DNA from: Falsiruegeria mediterranea M17
Lineage (GTDB): Bacteria > Pseudomonadota > Alphaproteobacteria > Rhodobacterales > Rhodobacteraceae
Assembly: GCF_900302455.1 (NCBI RefSeq)
Contig: NZ_ONZG01000002.1
Coordinates: forward strand, 1-64,000
Length of the DNA stretch: 64,000 nucleotides
Direction: 5' to 3'
The notes below the pieces were generated by a model. It did not search any database, was not told where the DNA came from, and saw only the letters and a program-made list of their open reading frames with translations. This document shows, one piece after another, positions 16,518-25,208 of the stretch; positions within the stretch are counted from its first letter, which is position 1; each line of letters begins with the position of its first letter. The position numbers and the translations under genes were made by a program.

Positions 16518-17897
16518 CTACTTCGTTATGATCTCGGGGCCCATCACAGCGTTCGGGATGACCGTGCTGAGCCATGGGATGTAGGTGATCATGATCAGGA
16601 AGACGAAGAGCACCGCCAGGAACGGCAGGGCCGCCCGCACAACGCTCATCATCGGCATGCCTGCCACGCCAGAGGTCACGAAAAGGTTCAGACCCACCGG
16701 CGGGGTGATCATCCCGATTTCCATGTTCACCACCATGATGATGCCCAGATGGATCGGATCGATGCCCAGTTCGATGGCAATCGGGAAGACCAGCGGCGCA
16801 ACGATCACCAAAAGACCCGAGGGCTCCATGAACTGACCACCAATCAGCAGGATCACGTTCACCACGACCAGGAACATCACCGGACCAAAGCCCGCCGACA
16901 GCATCGCATTGGCGATATGCTGCGGGATCTGCTCGTCCGTCAGCACGTGCTTTAGGATCAACGCGTTGGCGATGACGAAGAGCAGCGTGACGGTCAGTTT
17001 GCCCGCCTCGAACAGCGTGTGCTTGGTATCCGCGTGGAAGAAGGCCGTGACCAGAGCAATTGGCTTGCGCAGCAATGCGGTCTTGGGCGCATCTTCTCCA
17101 TTCGATAGCGGGCCCATGTCCTTGTAGACAAAGCACGCGATGAAAAAGGCATAGACAGCCGCCACCGCAGCAGCCTCGGTCGGGGTAAAGATACCGCCAT
17201 AGATGCCGCCGAGAATGATCACGATCAGGAACAGACCCCAGCCCGCATCGCGCGCCGACTGGAAAATCTCGCCCCAGCCCTGCCATTCGCCCTTGGGCAA
17301 GTTCTTGACCTTGGCCATGACATAGATAGTCACCATCAGCATGATGCCCGCCATCAGGCCCGGGATGATGCCCGCCAGGAACATGCGTCCAACCGAAACC
17401 TCGACCGCCGCCGCATAGACCACCATCACGATGGACGGCGGGATCAGAATGCCAAGCGTACCGGCGTTACAAATGACGCCTGCTGCAAATTCCTTGGTGT
17501 AGCCTACCTGCCGCATGCCCGCGATCACGATGGAACCGATGGCCACAACCGTCGCCGGAGAAGATCCGGACAGGGCCGCAAAGAGCATACAAGCAAAGAC
17601 ACCGGCAATTGCCAGACCACCGGGCAGATGACCCACACAGGCGATCGAGAAGCGGATGATCCGCCGCGCTACGCCGCCCGTCGTCATGAAGGACGAGGCC
17701 AGAATGAAGAATGGGATCGCCAGAAGGGTAAAGTGACCCTCGAACGCTTCGAACAGAGTACCCGCGACCGAGGCCAGCGAACTGTCGGAATAGACCAGCA
17801 GGAACAGGGTGGAACTCAGGCCAAGTGATACCGCAATCGGCACACCGATCAGCAACAGGCCGATCACCATCGAAAACAGAAGAACGACGTCCATCAC
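16518..17897 (-). CDS. dctM: TRAP transporter large permease (DctM)
   Basis: The 459-residue polytopic inner-membrane protein has about 12 hydrophobic segments and the DctM family motifs (FILASSFMTTGGVARRII, GIITPPxGLNLF-like MITPPVGLNLFVTSG). It is the sodium-coupled translocation subunit working with the binding protein DctP and small permease DctQ. It overlaps dctQ by four bases, so translation is probably coupled. The total length is within the range for stand-alone DctM. A polar loop in the middle (about residues 255-290) includes YKDMGPLSNGEDAPK. Confidence 0.94.
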   Translation of the reverse strand: MMDVVLLFSMVIGLLLIGVPIAVSLGLSSTLFLLVYSDSSLASVAGTLFEAFEGHFTLLAIPFFILASSFMTTGGVARRIIRFSIACVGHLPGGLAIAGVFACMLFAALSGSSPATVVAIGSIVIAGMRQVGYTKEFAAGVICNAGTLGILIPPSIVMVVYAAAVEVSVGRMFLAGIIPGLMAGIMLMVTIYVMAKVKNLPKGEWQGWGEIFQSARDAGWGLFLIVIILGGIYGGIFTPTEAAAVAAVYAFFIACFVYKDMGPLSNGEDAPKTALLRKPIALVTAFFHADTKHTLFEAGKLTVTLLFVIANALILKHVLTDEQIPQHIANAMLSAGFGPVMFLVVVNVILLIGGQFMEPSGLLVIVAPLVFPIAIELGIDPIHLGIIMVVNMEIGMITPPVGLNLFVTSGVAGMPMMSVVRAALPFLAVLFVFLIMITYIPWLSTVIPNAVMGPEIITK

Positions 17898-18685: not shown

Positions 18686-19687
18686 TCAGAAACCGGCGTT
18701 GATCGCCTGTGCTGCGTCGATCTTGTCCTGACCCACGTCGCCTGCAAATTTGTCCCAAACCGGCTTCATTGTGTCGACCCAGGCCTGACGCTGCGTGGCG
18801 TCCAGCTGACGGATGGTGCCGCCTGCATCAATGATTGCCTGCTTGGCCCCTTCGTTTACGGCAAAGGCTTCGCTGTTGCGGGTCTCTGTAACTTCGCTCA
18901 GGATGGTGGTGAACTGATCGCGCACGGCAGGATCCAGGCTGTCCAGCCAGTCGACCGAAGTCACGACCAGATAGTCGATGATGCCGTGGTTGGTTTCGGT
19001 CACACCGTCCTGAACCTCAAAGAACTTCTTGCCGTAGATGTTCGACCAGGTGTTCTCCTGCCCGTCCACAACGCCCTGCTGCAGCGCGCCATACACTTCC
19101 GAGAAGGCCATCTTCTGCGGCGAACCACCGATAGCTTCCATCTGGGCCACCAGAACGTCCGACGACTGAACCCGGAACTTCAGGCCGTTTGCATCGGTCG
19201 GCGCGACCAGCGGCTTGTTGGCCGACATCTGCTTCATGCCGTTGTGCCAGAACGCCAGTCCCTGCAGACCGCGGCGCTGCATGCTGTCGAGCATAGCCTG
19301 ACCGTCATCCGAGGATTGGAACGCATCCACGGCTTCGATGTTCTTGAACATGAACGGCAGGTCGAACAGGCGGAACTGCTTGGTGAACTTTTCAAACTTC
19401 GACAGCGATGGCGCGGCAAGCTGCACGTCGCCCTGCAACATGGCTTCGAGCACTTTGTTGTCGTTATAGAGCGTGGAGTTCGGATAGACTTCCATGCACA
19501 TGGTGCCGTTCATCTCGTCGTTGACGCGTTGCTCCAGCAGCGAAGCAGCGATCCCCTTGGGGTGCTTGTCGGTGTTGGTGACATGCGCAAACTTGACGAC
19601 GATCTCGCCGTCATCACAGGCGGCGAAGCCAGCGGTGGCGGTGACGCTCAAGGCCAGTGCCGTCGCGGCGGTTGTTAGAAATTTCAT
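18686..19687 (-). CDS. dctP: TRAP transporter substrate-binding protein (DctP)
   Basis: The 333-residue periplasmic protein has a signal peptide (residues about 1-23, ending GFAAC). The DctP fold includes VVKFAHVTNTDKHPKGIAA, the GLKFRVQSS segment with the conserved substrate-carboxylate-binding arginine, and YGALQQGVVDGQENTWSNIY. The motif set resembles C4-dicarboxylate-binding DctP closely. With dctBD-like regulators next to it, succinate, fumarate or malate are likely ligands, but this is inference. The start at 19687 has GGGAGAG upstream. The longer frame lacks a site and would place the signal peptide internally. Confidence 0.94.
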   Translation of the reverse strand: MKFLTTAATALALSVTATAGFAACDDGEIVVKFAHVTNTDKHPKGIAASLLEQRVNDEMNGTMCMEVYPNSTLYNDNKVLEAMLQGDVQLAAPSLSKFEKFTKQFRLFDLPFMFKNIEAVDAFQSSDDGQAMLDSMQRRGLQGLAFWHNGMKQMSANKPLVAPTDANGLKFRVQSSDVLVAQMEAIGGSPQKMAFSEVYGALQQGVVDGQENTWSNIYGKKFFEVQDGVTETNHGIIDYLVVTSVDWLDSLDPAVRDQFTTILSEVTETRNSEAFAVNEGAKQAIIDAGGTIRQLDATQRQAWVDTMKPVWDKFAGDVGQDKIDAAQAINAGF

Positions 19688-20067
19688 CTGCTCTCTCCCT
19701 ACAGATTGTCTGAACCAGATTGGCAAACGCCGAAGAACGGCGTGCTGAACGAAGTGAACCGACTCACGGGCAACAGCTCAACGATTTGTAGGGAACTGGC
19801 ACAGCTACAGAGTTTTACCTTTTATTTTCATATCACTGCGAGAAAACCTGACGACTTCGAAAAACGCCGCTTTTTCCTGATGTGCGAATTTCCGCACATC
19901 CCGCCCGCCACTTGTGCGAAAAACCGCACAGGCAGACGAATCACCTTTCCGAATCACGGTGCCACAGGCCGGGCCCGACAGGGGTCGGCCTGCCCAGACA
20001 AAGTAGATATGCCCAAGTCTGTTCGGGCACATCTTTGATGTGATCCGCAGACGCGGGAGCGCCCCCT
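19688..20067. other. Regulatory region between dctP and the dctD-like gene
   Basis: About 380 bases with no supported gene. It contains the dctP leader and, about 195-245 bases upstream of dctP, two palindromes that are likely regulator sites. No TGGCAC-N5-TTGC sigma-54 promoter was found on the minus strand. AT-rich DNA at 19805-19840 may assist melting or bending. The left-hand end of the dctD transcript should lie near 20040-20067. Confidence 0.5.
19881..19930. promoter_or_regulatory. Two tandem TGTGCG-N6-CGCACA palindromes (probable DctD-type upstream sites)
   Basis: Site 1 (19881-19898) and site 2 (19913-19930) share perfect 6-bp arms with 6-base spacers. Site 1 extends to 8-bp arms. 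The start-to-start distance is 32 bp, about three helical turns. They lie about 195-245 bp upstream of dctP, an enhancer-like distance. Rhizobial DctD sites are known to be palindromes of this general GTGCG...CGCAC kind. Binding here is inferred. Confidence 0.6.
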
Positions 20068-21297
20068 CTACCGGCGATAGTCCTCGGGCCGGATCCCATA
20101 ACGGGTCAGCTTGTCATAAAACGTCTTGCGCGGCAGTTTCAGCACCTTGGCCGCCTCGGACGCCTTGCCGTTGTTGCGCCCAAGGGCAGACACCAGCAAC
20201 GCCCGCTCAACCCGCGCCAACTGCTCCGCCAGACCCAGCTCTGCCGCCTGCGCCACATCCTCGGGCATGCCCAGAACAAAGCGCATCGCAGCTGACATCA
20301 GCGAGCGCGCGTTGCCAGGCCAATCCTGCGCCATGAGCGAGGCCAGATGGTCCGGCGTGATCTCGGGCGCGTCGATGCCCGCCTGCTCGGCGGCCTGCGC
20401 CACGTAATGTCGGAACAGGACCGGTATATCCTCGGGCCGCTCGGCGAGGGATGGGATGCGCACCCGCATCACATCCAGGCGATAAAAGAGATCGGCATTG
20501 AACACCCCCTGCGCCGCCAAGGCGCCCAGATCTGCAGTGGTCCCAGCCAAAATGCGCGCGCCTGCGCCCTGCTCGATCAACTCAAGCGCGGCGTATTGCG
20601 TCGCCTCGGGCATGGCCGAGACCTCATCAAGGAACAATGACCCACCCGAAGCCTCGTCACACAGCCGCGCAAACTCCTGTGCGCTCAGCCCGGCGGCGGG
20701 ACGTTTGACAAAAGGACCCTGGCCTGCAGGCGACATCAGGTGCACCACCTCGGCCACCTTTGAAATGCCGCTCCCAGCCGGTCCGGTCACCAGCACCTCG
20801 GCCCCCGTGCGCGCAACCGACCGCACCCGCGCGCGTAACTCTTCGGATTGCGACGACGTGCCAAAGAGCATTCGCGCCGCCGGATCGCCGGTCTCCAGCT
20901 GCAATTTCAACGCCCGGTTTTCCAGCACCAGTGCTCGCGTGCGGCTGGCCCGCTCCAGCACCGCCAACAGATCCGAACTGGCACATGGTTTTTCAAGGAA
21001 TCCAAACGCCCCCTGCCCCATGGCCTTGACCGCCATCGGGATATCGCCTTCTCCGGTCAGCAGGATCACCGGCAGCTCGGCATCCACCTCTTGCGTGTAG
21101 TCGAGCAGGTGAAACCCGTCCCGTCCCGGCATGCGGATGTCCGACAGGATCACCCCATCGAAATCGGGTCTGATGTGATCCTTGGCAGCCACAAATGACC
21201 CCGCCGTCAGCGCGTCATAATCTGCCAGCTCAAGCGTCTGCGACAGCGCCTCACGCACGGCGGCATCATCGTCGACCAGTAAAACCCTGCGTGTCAT
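20068..21297 (-). CDS. dctD: NtrC/DctD-family response regulator lacking GAFTGA
   Basis: The 409-residue protein has a receiver domain (VDDD, phospho-Asp in ILSDIRMP, conserved Lys in FLEKP), a central AAA+ domain and a C-terminal Fis-type helix-turn-helix (ALGRNNGKASEAAKVLKL). It pairs with the kinase encoded just upstream (ATGA overlap) to control the TRAP operon. The AAA+ domain is abnormal. The Walker A reads GPAGSGIS, with Ile for the ATP-binding Lys. The roughly 25-residue segment with the GAFTGA sigma-54 loop is missing between GPFVKRPAAG and the intact Walker B GGSLFLDEV. It probably does not activate sigma-54. Rhodobacter capsulatus NtrC, which also lacks GAFTGA, works with sigma-70. 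Confidence 0.9.
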   Translation of the reverse strand: MTRRVLLVDDDAAVREALSQTLELADYDALTAGSFVAAKDHIRPDFDGVILSDIRMPGRDGFHLLDYTQEVDAELPVILLTGEGDIPMAVKAMGQGAFGFLEKPCASSDLLAVLERASRTRALVLENRALKLQLETGDPAARMLFGTSSQSEELRARVRSVARTGAEVLVTGPAGSGISKVAEVVHLMSPAGQGPFVKRPAAGLSAQEFARLCDEASGGSLFLDEVSAMPEATQYAALELIEQGAGARILAGTTADLGALAAQGVFNADLFYRLDVMRVRIPSLAERPEDIPVLFRHYVAQAAEQAGIDAPEITPDHLASLMAQDWPGNARSLMSAAMRFVLGMPEDVAQAAELGLAEQLARVERALLVSALGRNNGKASEAAKVLKLPRKTFYDKLTRYGIRPEDYRR

Positions 21298-23045
21298 GCC
21301 GCCTGCTCCTTGCCAAAAGGCTCCAGTTCCACCGTGAACACCGCGCCCTGGTCCGTGTTGGCCCCGCGGATATTGCCGCCAAAGCTCTGTACCAACCCGT
21401 ATGAGATCGAAAGCCCCAATCCCATCCCCTCGGAACTGCCAACCGCCTTGGTGGAATAGAAGGGATCAAAGATCTTTTCAGGCTCTTCAATCCCGGGCCC
21501 GGTGTCCGACACTATGACCTGCAACCGATCACCACCGTGAACAGCAATCTCGATCTGTTTGTTGTCGGCATCCGCCATGGCATCCACCGCGTTGTTGATC
21601 AGGTTGACGAACACCTGCCCCAACCGCACTTCGCCGCCCCAGGCATAGACCGGCGTCAGCGGGCGGGACCAATGCAGCGCGACACCTTCTGCCTTGAGGT
21701 GCGTGGCCGTCAGTTCGACGACCGTGTCAATCACGTGCACAAGATCAACCTTGCCCATCGGTTCGCTTTCGTTGCGGGCAAAGGCGCGCAGGTTCTTGAT
21801 GATCCGGGCCATGCGCGCGGCCATGTCCGAGATGCGCCCCAGATTTTCACCCGCTTTCTCAGACCGCCCCCGATCCAGAAAGGCCGCACCATTGTCGGCA
21901 AACTGCTGAATCGCCATCAGCGGCTGATTGAGCTCATGGCTGATGCCCGCCGACATCTGCCCAAGTGCCGACAGCTTGCCCGCCTGCACCAGATCCGCTT
22001 GCGCGCGTTTGAGCGCCGCTTCGGCCTCTTCGCGCTCGGTCACCTCGCGGCGCAGTTGCACGTTGGTGTCCTGCAAGACCCGCGTTCGATCCGCCACGCG
22101 GCTTTCCAGATCCGCATTGGCCAAGGCCAACGCCCTTCGCCGTTCCGAGGCCAGGAACAGCAGTGCGCCAAACGCCAAACACAAGGCTGCCAAAGCGGCC
22201 GCCTGAAGTCCTGCGATCCGAGCTGCGGGGGCAACATCCACGATAATTTCGCCCGTCATGCCGATCTGAGGCAGGCTGACGGTGGTGTGCAGACCTGCGC
22301 GCGGCACATGTGGCCCCCAATTGAGCTGCCAGATCTCATGCTCGCCCACATCAACGGACGCAAAAGCAGGCGCATCGCCCGTGGCCGGGCCCAGACCGAT
22401 CTGCCCCGCCTCGCGCTGCCAGAACAGCAGCTCGGGCCGGTTCGAGATAAAAACCTCTCCGGTGTCATCGGTGAAGAACACCGGCGGCAGCGAGCCACGC
22501 CATGTCTGTTCCACATCCTCCAGATCGGCGACCACGATCAGCACGCCGCGCACCGGACCGTCCGGCTCAAACGCGGGCGCGGCATAGAAATAGGCGCGTC
22601 GCCCGGTTTGGGGCATGACCTCGTGATGGGTGCCAAGCGCGCCCTGCAGTGCGCGTTCGAAATAGGGTGTCTGGGACAGGTCCTGCCCCGCCAACCCCTG
22701 GGCGGCGGCCAGCACTCGACCGTTGCGGTCGGCAAAGGCAACATCCAAAGCCCCGGTCTTGTCGGCAATTGCCACCATCAGCGTATTGGCCTGGGCCTGC
22801 ATCTCGGGGCTGTTGTCGAGGCCGCGCAACCCGGGATGCGTCGCCGTCAGCACCGCAAGTTCCTGATAAATCTGCAACTGGGTGCTCAACCGGTCGCTGG
22901 CCAATGCCAGATCGGCCTCGGCCCTAAGCCCCAACTGATCCAGCGCCTGACGATAGCCATAGGTCCAGACGCCCGCGGCAAGGGTCGCCACCACGCCAAA
23001 GAACCCAACGATGATCCAGCTGCGCTGACGCCAATATCCCTTCAT
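21294..23045 (-). CDS. dctB: DctB-type sensor histidine kinase
   Basis: The 583-residue inner-membrane kinase starts MKGYWRQRSW. It has a first membrane helix at about residues 10-30, a periplasmic double-Cache sensing domain to about 285 and a second helix (AALAALCLAFGALLFLAS). A coiled coil follows, then the HisKA box MSAGISHELNQPLMAIQQF and an HATPase domain ending GMGLGLSISYGLVQSFGG. It should sense C4-dicarboxylates and phosphorylate the DctD-like regulator. The frame stays open upstream to 24254 only because it is antisense to the P450 gene. The start at 23045 has AGGGAC upstream and opens at the membrane helix. Confidence 0.93.
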   Translation of the reverse strand: MKGYWRQRSWIIVGFFGVVATLAAGVWTYGYRQALDQLGLRAEADLALASDRLSTQLQIYQELAVLTATHPGLRGLDNSPEMQAQANTLMVAIADKTGALDVAFADRNGRVLAAAQGLAGQDLSQTPYFERALQGALGTHHEVMPQTGRRAYFYAAPAFEPDGPVRGVLIVVADLEDVEQTWRGSLPPVFFTDDTGEVFISNRPELLFWQREAGQIGLGPATGDAPAFASVDVGEHEIWQLNWGPHVPRAGLHTTVSLPQIGMTGEIIVDVAPAARIAGLQAAALAALCLAFGALLFLASERRRALALANADLESRVADRTRVLQDTNVQLRREVTEREEAEAALKRAQADLVQAGKLSALGQMSAGISHELNQPLMAIQQFADNGAAFLDRGRSEKAGENLGRISDMAARMARIIKNLRAFARNESEPMGKVDLVHVIDTVVELTATHLKAEGVALHWSRPLTPVYAWGGEVRLGQVFVNLINNAVDAMADADNKQIEIAVHGGDRLQVIVSDTGPGIEEPEKIFDPFYSTKAVGSSEGMGLGLSISYGLVQSFGGNIRGANTDQGAVFTVELEPFGKEQAA

Positions 23046-23105
23046 GTCCCTAGTCTTAGCAAAGCTGCTCTTGCATTGACCAGAGGCGCGCGGCACACCC
23101 GGGAT

Positions 23106-24287
23106 ATGAAGACCTTGCACCAAAACCCGACGGAACCGGAATTTGTCCAAGATCCCTATGCTTTCTACCGTGCAGCCCGCGCCGATGGGGATCTGCAGTA
23201 TTGGGCCGACTACGACATGCCTGCCGCTTTTACCCATGACGCGGTGCAATGCATCCTGCGTGACCGCCGCTTTGGCCGCGAGGTTCCACCCGAGATGGCC
23301 AAGCCCGGTCCGGCGCACCTGGCCCCCTGGCTCGCGATCGAGGCGACCTCGCTGCTCGAAGCGGAACCGCCCCGCCACACGCGGCTGCGCGCGTTGGTTC
23401 TGCGCGCCTTTACCTCGCGCGCAATTGGTTCGCTGCCGCCAGACGTCGAAACCTTGTGTCATCACCTTATCGATCAATTCCCCAGCGACCCCTTCGACCT
23501 GCTCGACGCCTATTGCACCCAAGTGCCGGTGATCACGATCTGCCGTCTGTTGGGCGTGCCCGAGGAAATGGCGCCGGATCTGCTCAACTGGTCCCACGCC
23601 ATGGTCGCGATGTATCAGGCCAGCCGCACACGTGAGACCGAGGACGCCGCCGCACGCGCCTCGACCGAGTTTGCGGATTTCCTGCGCGGCTACATCGATG
23701 AACGCCGCAGTGACCCCCGTGATGACCTGATCACCCGGCTGATCACGGCCGAGGAAGAAGGCGAGAAGCTGAACACCGACGAGCTGATCGGCACCTGCAT
23801 CCTGTTGCTGAATGCCGGGCATGAGGCAACGGTGCATGCCCTGTCGAACGGAGTGAAGACCTTGCTCGAAACTGGTTCGGTCGACGCGCTCTTTGGCGAT
23901 GCCCTGGACGAAACGGTCGAGGAAATCCTGCGTTACGACCCACCCCTGCATATGTTCACGCGCTATGCGTATGAGGATTTGCAACTCTATGGGCACGACT
24001 TCAAACGTGGTGATCAGGTGGCGCTTCTGCTGGGGGCTGCAAACCGCGATCCGGTGATTTGGACCGACCCGGACAGGTTTGACCCCAGCCGACACATCCA
24101 GACAAACACCAGCTTTGGCGGCGGGCTGCATTTCTGTGTCGGCGCTCCGCTCGCGCGTCTGGAAATGCGGATCGCCCTGCCGATCCTGTTTCAACGCTGC
24201 CCTGATCTGTCGCTGACGCAAGCGCCGGAGTACGCCAACACCTACCATTTCCACGGCCTCACCCGGCTAGAGGTGGCAAAGGGTTGA
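23106..24287 (+). CDS. Cytochrome P450
   Basis: The 393-residue soluble bacterial P450 contains the I-helix oxygen-binding motif LNAGHEATVHAL, the ExxR motif EEILRYDPP, and the haem-binding FGGGLHFCVGAPLARLE with the axial cysteine. It would mono-oxygenate a small lipophilic substrate using ferredoxin and reductase partners, none of which is adjacent. The ATG at 23106 starts 60 bases from the divergent dctB start, so the two share a short promoter region. The large upstream extension of the frame is a shadow of dctB. Substrate unknown. Confidence 0.95.
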   Translation: MKTLHQNPTEPEFVQDPYAFYRAARADGDLQYWADYDMPAAFTHDAVQCILRDRRFGREVPPEMAKPGPAHLAPWLAIEATSLLEAEPPRHTRLRALVLRAFTSRAIGSLPPDVETLCHHLIDQFPSDPFDLLDAYCTQVPVITICRLLGVPEEMAPDLLNWSHAMVAMYQASRTRETEDAAARASTEFADFLRGYIDERRSDPRDDLITRLITAEEEGEKLNTDELIGTCILLLNAGHEATVHALSNGVKTLLETGSVDALFGDALDETVEEILRYDPPLHMFTRYAYEDLQLYGHDFKRGDQVALLLGAANRDPVIWTDPDRFDPSRHIQTNTSFGGGLHFCVGAPLARLEMRIALPILFQRCPDLSLTQAPEYANTYHFHGLTRLEVAKG

Positions 24288-24344: not shown

Positions 24345-25208
24345 GTGCCCACCCCAACCGATTTGAACCGTTGGCAAATTTCTGATGGTCGCCTGCTTGG
24401 CGACGAGATCGCCATCGTGCGCGGCTATTGCCAGGCCTTGGTGGGTATGGGCGTTCCGCTGGCGCGGGTGCGGGTGGCACAGCAGTATTCCAATCCGATC
24501 CTAAGCGCCTGAGGCATTATCTGGACGCCCCAGAACACCGAGAAACACGTTGTCCCGTCGACCATCCAGGACACCTCAGCCTGGGAGGGCAGCCCGTTCG
24601 AACATGTCATCACCACGCGCACATCCCTGCGCAAACGGATCATGGCCCTGGACCTGAGCCGGGAACACGACGCCTATGCCGAACTCGCGGCAGACGGGGC
24701 GACGGATTTCTTCGCGATGGCGCTGGAACATGGCGATGGATCGGTCCAAGGCTCCAGCCTGACGACGCATCATCCCGATGGGTTCAGCGACGCGGACATT
24801 CAGGCGTTTGAAGTCACGCGCCATGCGTTGGCCGCAGCGATGGAACCGATTGCGATGCGCGAATCTCAGCAGAGACTGTTGCGCACCTATCTGGGCGATG
24901 GTCCGGCTGTTGAAATCGGGGACGGCCACATCAAAAGCGGCGAGAACACCTCGGTTTCAGCAGCGATCCTGAGCGCCGACTTTGGCCCGGTCACATTCGG
25001 CAACATCGGCAGCCCCGACCGGTTGGATTACACCGTTTTTGGCCCGCCGGTGAACATGGCGAGCCGGGTGCAGGCGCTTAGCAAAGGCGTGAACCACCCG
25101 GCGCTGTTCACCTCAGCCCTGGCCCAGAACCCGCAGGCAAACACCTCCAGCATTGGACATCATGACATCCGCGGCGTCGCCGACCCAGTCGAACTGTTCC
25201 GCCTATAG
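24345..25208 (+). pseudogene. Class III adenylate cyclase, degenerate
   Basis: This is the remnant of a cyclase with an N-terminal GAF-like region. From a GTG at 24345 the frame reads TDLNRWQISDGRL and continues to an in-frame TGA at 24510-24512. It resumes as GIIWTPQNTE and runs open to 25208. The cyclase domain is also cut. SAAILSADF, which holds the first metal Asp, is joined near 24981 directly to PVTFGNIGSPDRLDYTVFGPPVNMASR. The central catalytic part of about 110 residues, with the second metal Asp, is therefore missing, in frame. The C-terminal HDIRGVADPVELFRL is normal for the family. It cannot make cAMP. It converges on the Lrp gene with a 6-base overlap. Confidence 0.8.

Follow-up and report, generated by a model that had tools for sequence, protein, structure and literature searches.

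DctD of Falsiruegeria mediterranea, a probable sigma-70 activator of dctPQM that has lost the sigma-54 contact loop and the Walker A lysine

Introduction

In Sinorhizobium meliloti, the uptake of C4-dicarboxylates is controlled by the sensor DctB and the regulator DctD, which carries a GAFTGA loop and the Walker A sequence GETGSGKE and serves a -24/-12 promoter on a symporter gene. The sequence of the Rhizobium DctD binding site has been published (PMC11077940). Relatives that depart from this design have also been described. The NtrC of Rhodobacter capsulatus, which is without GAFTGA, reportedly works with sigma-70 and must bind ATP, though it does not have to hydrolyse it (PMC10274813), and a Caulobacter NtrC with Lys178 changed to Ala is reported not to sustain growth in defined medium (PMC10274813). 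For PgtA, a 2024 paper describes a substitution at residue 173 as inactivating and suggests a disturbed contact with sigma-54 (PMC11077982).

The window analysed here is a stretch of 64,000 nucleotides of Falsiruegeria mediterranea M17 (contig NZ_ONZG01000002.1, positions 1 to 64,000), and it holds a dct locus with the following genes:

20068..21297, minus strand: dctD, response regulator (open reading frame, Pfam, orthologue survey and alignment)
21294..23045, minus strand: dctB, sensor histidine kinase and partner of DctD (HisKA and HATPase_c; dCache_1 below its cut-off)
18686..19687, minus strand: dctP, TRAP substrate-binding protein of 333 amino acids
17894..18571, minus strand: dctQ, TRAP small permease
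16518..17897, minus strand: dctM, TRAP large permease

It is quite likely that phosphorylated DctD of this locus acts from an enhancer, with no ATPase activity, to activate dctPQM through sigma-70. The evidence is set out below together with the alternatives that bear on each part of it.

An altered AAA+ domain in DctD

The dctD frame opens with ATG at 21297 on the minus strand and encodes 409 amino acids; a preliminary description of this DNA had recognised a DctD-type regulator here, which is borne out, and the strand is added now. Pfam finds a receiver, a sigma-54 activation domain, an AAA lid and a Fis HTH, and in the genome search the Sigma54_activat match is broken in two, with profile positions 63-88 uncovered. 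Two losses reported earlier hold in the alignment: a 19-column gap spans the GAFTGA of S. meliloti DctD, and the Walker A motif is GPAGSGIS, where Ile178 takes the place of the lysine. The motifs said to remain are likewise all there, namely the receiver, Walker B (SLFLDE), DLFYRL and the Fis-type HTH. A second deletion, absent from the earlier account, removes 12 residues that read REITPLGTNLTR in S. meliloti DctD. We take this stretch to be the pre-sensor-I loop. The AlphaFold model of DctD has an AAA+ fold (pLDDT 83.9, pTM 0.53) and matches the structures of NtrX and NtrC1.

Three other activator-like regulators are encoded in the same genome:

G000:C17 and G000:C14 (loci L001, L002 and L003): NtrX, NtrC and a second DctD

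These proteins, the second DctD standing beside its own sensor, are without GAFTGA and keep the Walker A lysine, which makes the loss of the lysine peculiar to the short DctD.

A match to dctB is present in 123 of the 126 loci with an orthologue of the short DctD. Beyond dctB in the window, positions 22956-24287 of the plus strand are the coding region of a cytochrome P450; as the scanned P450 stretch overlaps the start of dctB on the opposite strand, the two are divergent neighbours. An open reading frame of 188 amino acids at 24642-25208 contains NIGSPDRLDYTVFGPPVNMASR and looks, by eye, like the last part of a class III nucleotide cyclase; it has no Pfam match and is possibly truncated or frameshifted.

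Conservation across the clade and the question of nucleotide binding

The orthologue survey drew evenly on 295 genomes of the family from 294 genera. All 295 gave matches in the DctD search, and the best match was the short form in 126. The deletion first noticed in the window recurs in all 125 readable orthologues, none of which has either the lysine or GAFTGA; the 126th, L033 of genome G009, has an in-frame TAA, which marks a pseudogene or a sequencing error. The tree set comprises 123 of the 126, L033 and two orthologues at contig ends (L137 and L143) being left out, and in it the lysine position is occupied by I (64), T (36), V (14), N (4), L (3), S (1) or M (1), never by Lys. A second genome collection gave 534 relatives; in the 80 named genomes listed among them, neither Lys nor GAFTGA occurs and the position is I, V or F. 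The nearest named relative among the matches listed is Tropicibacter sp. R16_0 (99% identity), and the structure alignment used the window DctD with 42 of the 80 named relatives. The absence of the lysine from 125, 123 and 80 (listed) sequences without exception rules out chance or sequencing error.

Around the missing lysine, much of the protein is held constant. Residues D53, K103, R390, T392 and K396 of the receiver and HTH are invariant, each in 123/123, and the altered P-loop is surrounded by new near-fixed residues: K180 in 121 of 123, A182 in 121, E183 in 122, and K198 in 115 with Arg in the other 8. The P-loop glycines are kept in 122, 123 and 121 of the 123, the Walker B Asp in 117 and the sensor II Arg in 121, and the catalytic Glu differs in 18. 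In ten pairs, some of which share a sequence and are not all independent, the dN/dS of the AAA+ domain is 0.011-0.107, which indicates purifying selection. Seven of the ten pairs have no amino-acid change at all in the P-loop stretch; one pair gives a dN/dS of 0.64 in this short stretch, at a dS of only 0.08. The picture is of a DctD that selection has maintained and whose active site has been altered. Given that Walker B, the sensor II Arg and the P-loop glycines are mostly kept, it may, judging by these residues, bind a nucleotide weakly.

It is against this background that the best-surviving alternative has to be weighed, namely that a nucleotide is still needed as a ligand, the lysine-less pocket binding ATP or another nucleotide and, with no hydrolysis, setting the active oligomer. 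The P-loop glycines, the Walker B Asp, the sensor II Arg and K180, E183 and K198 (or Arg) do form a pocket-like region, and ATP must reportedly be bound for R. capsulatus NtrC to work (PMC10274813). However, any of seven residues (I, T, V, N, L, S and M) can stand in for the lysine, and 18 of the 123 sequences differ at the catalytic Glu, while a Caulobacter NtrC with Lys changed to Ala is reported to fail in defined medium (PMC10274813). A loss that is harmful in that NtrC and tolerated throughout the DctD clade suggests that ATP is dispensable here. We consider the ligand explanation unlikely, and prefer an activator that works without ATP.

Operator dyads of the Rhizobium type upstream of dctPQM

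Between dctD and dctP, upstream of dctPQM, lie two dyads 32 bp apart, that is, three helical turns:

19913..19930: distal operator dyad, TGTGCGGTTTTTCGCACA on the minus strand, centred at about -176 from the predicted start
19881..19898: proximal operator dyad, TGTGCGGAAATTCGCACA on the minus strand, centred at about -143 from the predicted start

The dyad consensus of the clade, TGTGCGGAWWTCCGCACA, is the same as TGTGCGgaaatCCGCACA, which PMC11077940 gives as the site of R. meliloti DctD. With a matrix built from the exact dyads of the same loci, 113 of the 126 loci were found to have at least one dyad no more than about 1.1 kb from dctD, compared with none in one mononucleotide shuffle per locus and 15 in 630 dinucleotide shuffles. 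The dyads of a pair are 33 bp apart in 50 loci, 32 bp in 34 and 34 bp in 3.

The position of the dyads follows dctP. Across 112 loci the distal dyad lies at a median of 239 bp from dctP (10-90%: 212-254), while the distance from dctD to dctP varies widely. In six further loci dctP is 1.5-3.3 kb away from dctD, and there the dyads are found 241-257 bp upstream of dctP, which shows that they accompany the target rather than the regulator. In L105 a single strong dyad was found, right at the limit of the stretch examined, which contains no dctP. No dyad was found in L019, L029, L035, L037 and L039, where 1.5 kb downstream was covered, or in L106, which has no dctP within 4 kb.

In the whole 5.28 Mb genome of the window there are only three exact operator cores, two of them at dctD-dctP, and dctPQM is thus probably the main target. 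A wider regulon was considered and rejected: cores with one mismatch number 18 as against 22 for a reversed-pattern control, per strand, and show no excess. Allowing two mismatches, a scan of the window found 6 sites where 6.41 are expected by chance, the pair of adjacent exact sites alone being conspicuous.

A sigma-70-type promoter at dctP

Conservation and shuffled controls point to a promoter of the sigma-70 type at the target:

19776..19781, minus strand: predicted -35 element of dctP, TTGAGC
19753..19758, minus strand: predicted -10 element, TTCACT, 17 bp from the -35 element

When the loci are aligned on it, the pattern is TTGAGC-N17-TTYACT. The -35 element starts 148-150 bp after the distal dyad in 72/112 loci, as compared with at most 14 in 12 dinucleotide shuffles, and the information in the promoter totals 16.5 bits vs 6.8-7.8 in shuffles. 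The final T of the -10 element contributes 1.08 bits, where shuffles reach at most 0.34 outside the -35 element. The usual -10 element has A at position 2, which TTCACT does not have. The start of dctP transcription is predicted at about 19746, some 7 bp past TTCACT.

The six loci with a distant dctP, which lay outside the model, have their best promoter match at 148-151 bp in 6/6 within an 80-bp search. Their scores are 3.6-21.5; as 99% of random sequences score below 7.8, five of the six clear this level, and L074 (3.6) falls in the random range. Among the named relatives listed, a strict promoter pattern, cruder than the matrix, is found in 36 of the 68 loci with exact dyads.

A sigma-54 promoter at dctP was sought and rejected, high -24/-12 scores being rarer than in shuffles; no -24/-12 element above 8/11 occurs near dctP in 112 loci. 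The same scan gives 11/11 in the S. meliloti dctA-dctB interval, where a strong and a weak dyad stand 33 bp apart. Ten canonical-type loci from other families, whose DctD proteins have GAFTGA or GSFTGA, served as further controls: five have dyads, four of these with a sigma-54 match of 9-11/11 nearby, and the fifth, L291, has no sigma-54 match. The three of the four that were read by eye lie upstream of a dctA-type symporter. Genome G295 (L249 and L289) has a canonical relative with GAFTGA and a sigma-54 promoter of 10/11 immediately before a gene judged by eye to be an orthologue of dctP, with no matching dyads.

An IHF-like position between operator and promoter

A third element of the regulatory region is seen in the clade rather than in the window itself:

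19826..19838, minus strand: IHF-like position CAGTGATATGAAA between operator and promoter (clade motif)

The scan used a consensus for IHF that we take to be the accepted one, and counted as a match at most two mismatches, out of nine, to its reverse complement. The motif lies 92-94 bp from the distal dyad in 52/112 loci vs at most 7 in 20 shuffles, and the opposite orientation of the consensus gives 9 matches. In the window, 3 of the 9 fixed positions are mismatched. Four matches to the HU/IHF family are present in the window genome. As a separate observation, a partial domain of HU/IHF type (58/90 profile positions) lies at 1909-2082 on the minus strand, inside an open frame of 218 codons.

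Activation or repression of dctPQM

The preliminary description had left it between a sigma-70 activator and a repressor. The activator is better supported, by the operators about 143 and 176 bp upstream and by the phenotype of a sensor mutant (PMC10130141). In that work on Ruegeria pomeroyi DSS-3, the reported loss of OD on fumarate is 99.1% for the mutant in SPO2626 (dctM), 96.7% for SPO2628 (dctP) and 96.9% for SPO2630, and on succinate 92.6%, 75.2% and 81.8%, respectively (PMC10130141). On malate the OD effect is given as not significant for SPO2628 and SPO2630, while the effect on malate drawdown was significant (PMC10130141). SPO2630 is annotated as a sensor (PMC4809877), and its fitness is reported to be lower, alongside that of transporter genes, in one co-culture (PMC10041152). 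This is a mutant in dctB, not in dctD, and the insertion could be polar on dctD. R. pomeroyi SZCCDBG043, the strain in our set (L225; the mutants are in DSS-3), has a DctD with GPAGSGIS, two dyads 32 bp apart and TTGAGT-N17-TTCACT.

That DctD now represses dctPQM would suit the loss of its activation machinery, and the GAFTGA-less NtrC of Caulobacter is reported to repress some promoters (PMC10274813). The operators, however, are at some distance from the promoter, about 143 and 176 bp upstream of the predicted start. The R. pomeroyi DctB mutant, moreover, is reported to resemble the transporter mutants, though a kinase that relieves repression would give the same picture. Since a DctB mutant that behaves like transporter mutants and distal operators together favour activation over repression, we regard repression as improbable and activation by DctD as the better account of the locus.

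The sigma-54 gene in the family

A sigma-54 gene was not detected in the window genome (99.99% complete), in which PF04963 has no match. The searches were positive in four of 14 control genomes, including E. coli and Caulobacter. One candidate for rpoN in the window genome, a PF04552 match of 20.9 bits and below the cut-off, was rejected after its locus was read as a LacI-type HTH. A match of 23.2 bits to the same short part in genome G075 was likewise dropped as LacI-like, which lowered the rpoN-positive count from 92 to 91. With fragments such as that of G031 included, rpoN is present in 91 of the 295 family genomes. With the contact loop gone, no sigma-54 gene found and no good -24/-12 element, the earlier statement that this DctD should not open sigma-54 promoters is supported.

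Among the 123 genomes with the short DctD, rpoN is over the cut-off in 26, in one of them only as a fragment, and 97, some of which are incomplete, have none over the cut-off. In the rpoN-positive genomes, too, this DctD is without GAFTGA and the Walker A lysine. The gene changes its state 22 times on the DctD tree. That loss of rpoN drove the change in DctD genome by genome is rejected on these figures (26/123 keeping rpoN, and 22 changes of state), and the change in DctD must be older than, or independent of, many of the rpoN losses. The genome of R. pomeroyi SZCCDBG043 is among those that have rpoN. In the genome that holds L017, an rpoN fragment of 118 codons with one stop (G031:C54:1297-1632) is apparently a case of sigma-54 loss in progress in a relative with the same DctD. 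The predicted promoter stands at 146-152 bp in 13/23 rpoN-positive loci vs 76/89 loci without rpoN; this looser spacing could reflect drift or other controls.

The rpoN-positive genomes, 26 of the 123 with one a fragment, would provide the setting for DctD to serve sigma-54 promoters through a partner, either in mixed oligomers with an intact activator or with a sigma-54 that escaped detection. We hold this to be very improbable, given that 97/123 genomes, that of the window included, have no rpoN over the cut-off and that none of the 112 loci has a -24/-12 element above 8/11 near dctP.

Descent and steps of loss

Descent from DctD is indicated by the grouping with DctD in the tree, the dctB partner and the DctD operator. 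In a tree of 159 sequences, one side (support 82) combines canonical DctD with a class of full-length proteins in which GAFPGA or GAFAGA is the usual motif, and the other (support 99) holds three groups: class I (L136, L138 and L139), which has lost the loop and kept the lysine; class B, which keeps the lysine and has lost Walker B; and clade D, to which the window DctD belongs and which has lost the lysine (support 99; B and D together 77). When S. meliloti DctD and PgtA are added and D is thinned to 41, D, B and I form one group (98/95) in which class I is a grade, with PgtA on a very long branch beside it. Its similar deletion may therefore be independent.

The regulatory region can be followed along the same groups. 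Within class I, L136 keeps the promoter at 149 bp and one dyad, and L138 and L139 do not (1/3). A dyad is found in eight of the nine class B loci, paired in three at 41 bp. The class B proteins (L140, L141, L142, L144, L146, L149, L151, L159 and L161) have mostly GK in the lysine region, with Arg in some; Walker B and both loops are lost, and dctPQM is divergent from dctB. Loci L145, L147, L148, L150, L152-L158 and L160 encode the full-length DctD, mostly with GAFPGA or GAFAGA, in genomes with and without rpoN. This class was considered as a user of the operator and rejected: dctP lies beside dctD in four loci, three without a dyad and one with a weak one. The groups together suggest a stepwise loss, in which the sigma-54 loop went first (class I) and the motor followed by two routes, through the lysine in D and through Walker B in B. 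That DctD is a decaying, non-functional paralogue, as the lost catalytic residues and the in-frame stop of L033 might suggest, is hardly credible with a domain dN/dS far below 1, HTH and phosphorylation residues fixed, and an operator-promoter geometry common to most of the 126 loci.

A proposed mechanism

Anatomy of the protein and the promoter, conservation, the identity of the operator and the failure to detect a sigma-54 gene are the observations from which a mechanism can be drawn. DctB would phosphorylate DctD at Asp53, and phospho-DctD would bind the two ancestral dyads, which are centred about 143 and 176 bp before the predicted start of dctP, assisted by a DNA bend at the IHF-like site if IHF binds there. 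DctD would then contact and activate the sigma-70 RNA polymerase at TTGAGC-N17-TTCACT, presumably directly, and dctPQM would be switched on for C4-dicarboxylate uptake. Hydrolysis of ATP would have no part in this action; promoters of the sigma-70 type can open with no ATP-driven remodelling, which would thus be unnecessary. The AAA+ domain may have been left as a scaffold for oligomerisation and contact with the polymerase. In short, this regulator, whose family is widespread in marine bacteria, probably continues to turn on small-acid uptake, but in a simpler way.

Whether the whole clade uses an ATP-free enhancer on the housekeeping polymerase is, in our estimate, evenly balanced. This broader proposal holds that the operator pair, its phasing and the bend site were kept, that the promoter was swapped to sigma-70, and that through stepwise loss the AAA+ motor became a nucleotide-free scaffold with K180, E183 and K198. 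With these natural proteins a long-standing question becomes testable, namely what purpose the ATPase and the contact loops serve and whether an enhancer must have them to act from a distance. They also suggest how bacteria of the Roseobacter group can lose rpoN and yet keep control of C4-dicarboxylates, and they warn that annotation as a "sigma-54-dependent regulator", and inference from it for proteins like PgtA, can mislead.

Comparison with known systems

No description of a DctD without both GAFTGA and the Walker A lysine was found in open-licence PMC papers. Each part of the present system has precedent; the combination across a clade, with the operator kept and the promoter exchanged, was not found in that literature.

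The DctB-DctD/dctA system of Sinorhizobium shares common descent, the dctB partner and a target in C4-dicarboxylate uptake with the locus described here. The receivers have the same structure (1qkk, Z 24.1, rmsd 1.5 A over 138), and the S. meliloti dctA region has the same operator sequence and tandem spacing of 32-33 bp, with one site weaker. The window DctD differs in the loss of the loops and the lysine, in its sigma-70-type promoter and in its target, the TRAP transporter genes dctPQM.

With the NtrC of R. capsulatus and Caulobacter, DctD has in common the loss of the GAFTGA loop, and for these NtrC proteins use of sigma-70 and a need for the phosphorylated receiver are reported (PMC10274813). 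The features of the R. capsulatus type seen in DctD are the deletion of loop 1 and the intact receiver and HTH; the Walker A lysine is absent. For R. capsulatus NtrC the reported requirement is the binding of ATP, and for Caulobacter NtrC it is the Walker A lysine, which the DctD clade has lost. It was proposed earlier that DctD goes further than R. capsulatus NtrC, and for the lysine this stands; the loss is not unique, however, for the Walker A of PgtA is GAPGTGR and its alignment is gapped at the same point.

PgtA is also the best NCBIfam match of DctD, over its full length, at 261 bits against the cut-off of 650 for NF047793, which is not reached. As seen in an E. coli record, it too is without the GAFTGA loop and has Arg for Lys in Walker A (GAPGTGR), and it is reported to activate a transporter gene once phosphorylated (PMC11077982). 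It differs in having lost Walker B as well, and its identity to DctD is 31%. Residue 173 is a P-loop glycine in E. coli PgtA (GAPGTGR from 170), provided that the numbering carries over between species. As an observation on PgtA itself, the record (L298:80-1324), with GAPGTGR and without GAFTGA loop or Walker B, conflicts with the published suggestion of a sigma-54 contact (PMC11077982).

VpsR of Vibrio cholerae is likewise without GAFTGA and is reported to regulate sigma-70 promoters with no need of ATP (PMC10274813, PMC3162934). Its structure matches DctD with a Z of 20.7 over 331 residues, whereas it binds c-di-GMP, according to the PDB title, and is a distant relative, 20-21% identical to DctD. 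Set beside these systems, the DctD family would offer a natural series that leads from an ATP-driven sigma-54 activator to an ordinary sigma-70 activator with the operator unchanged.
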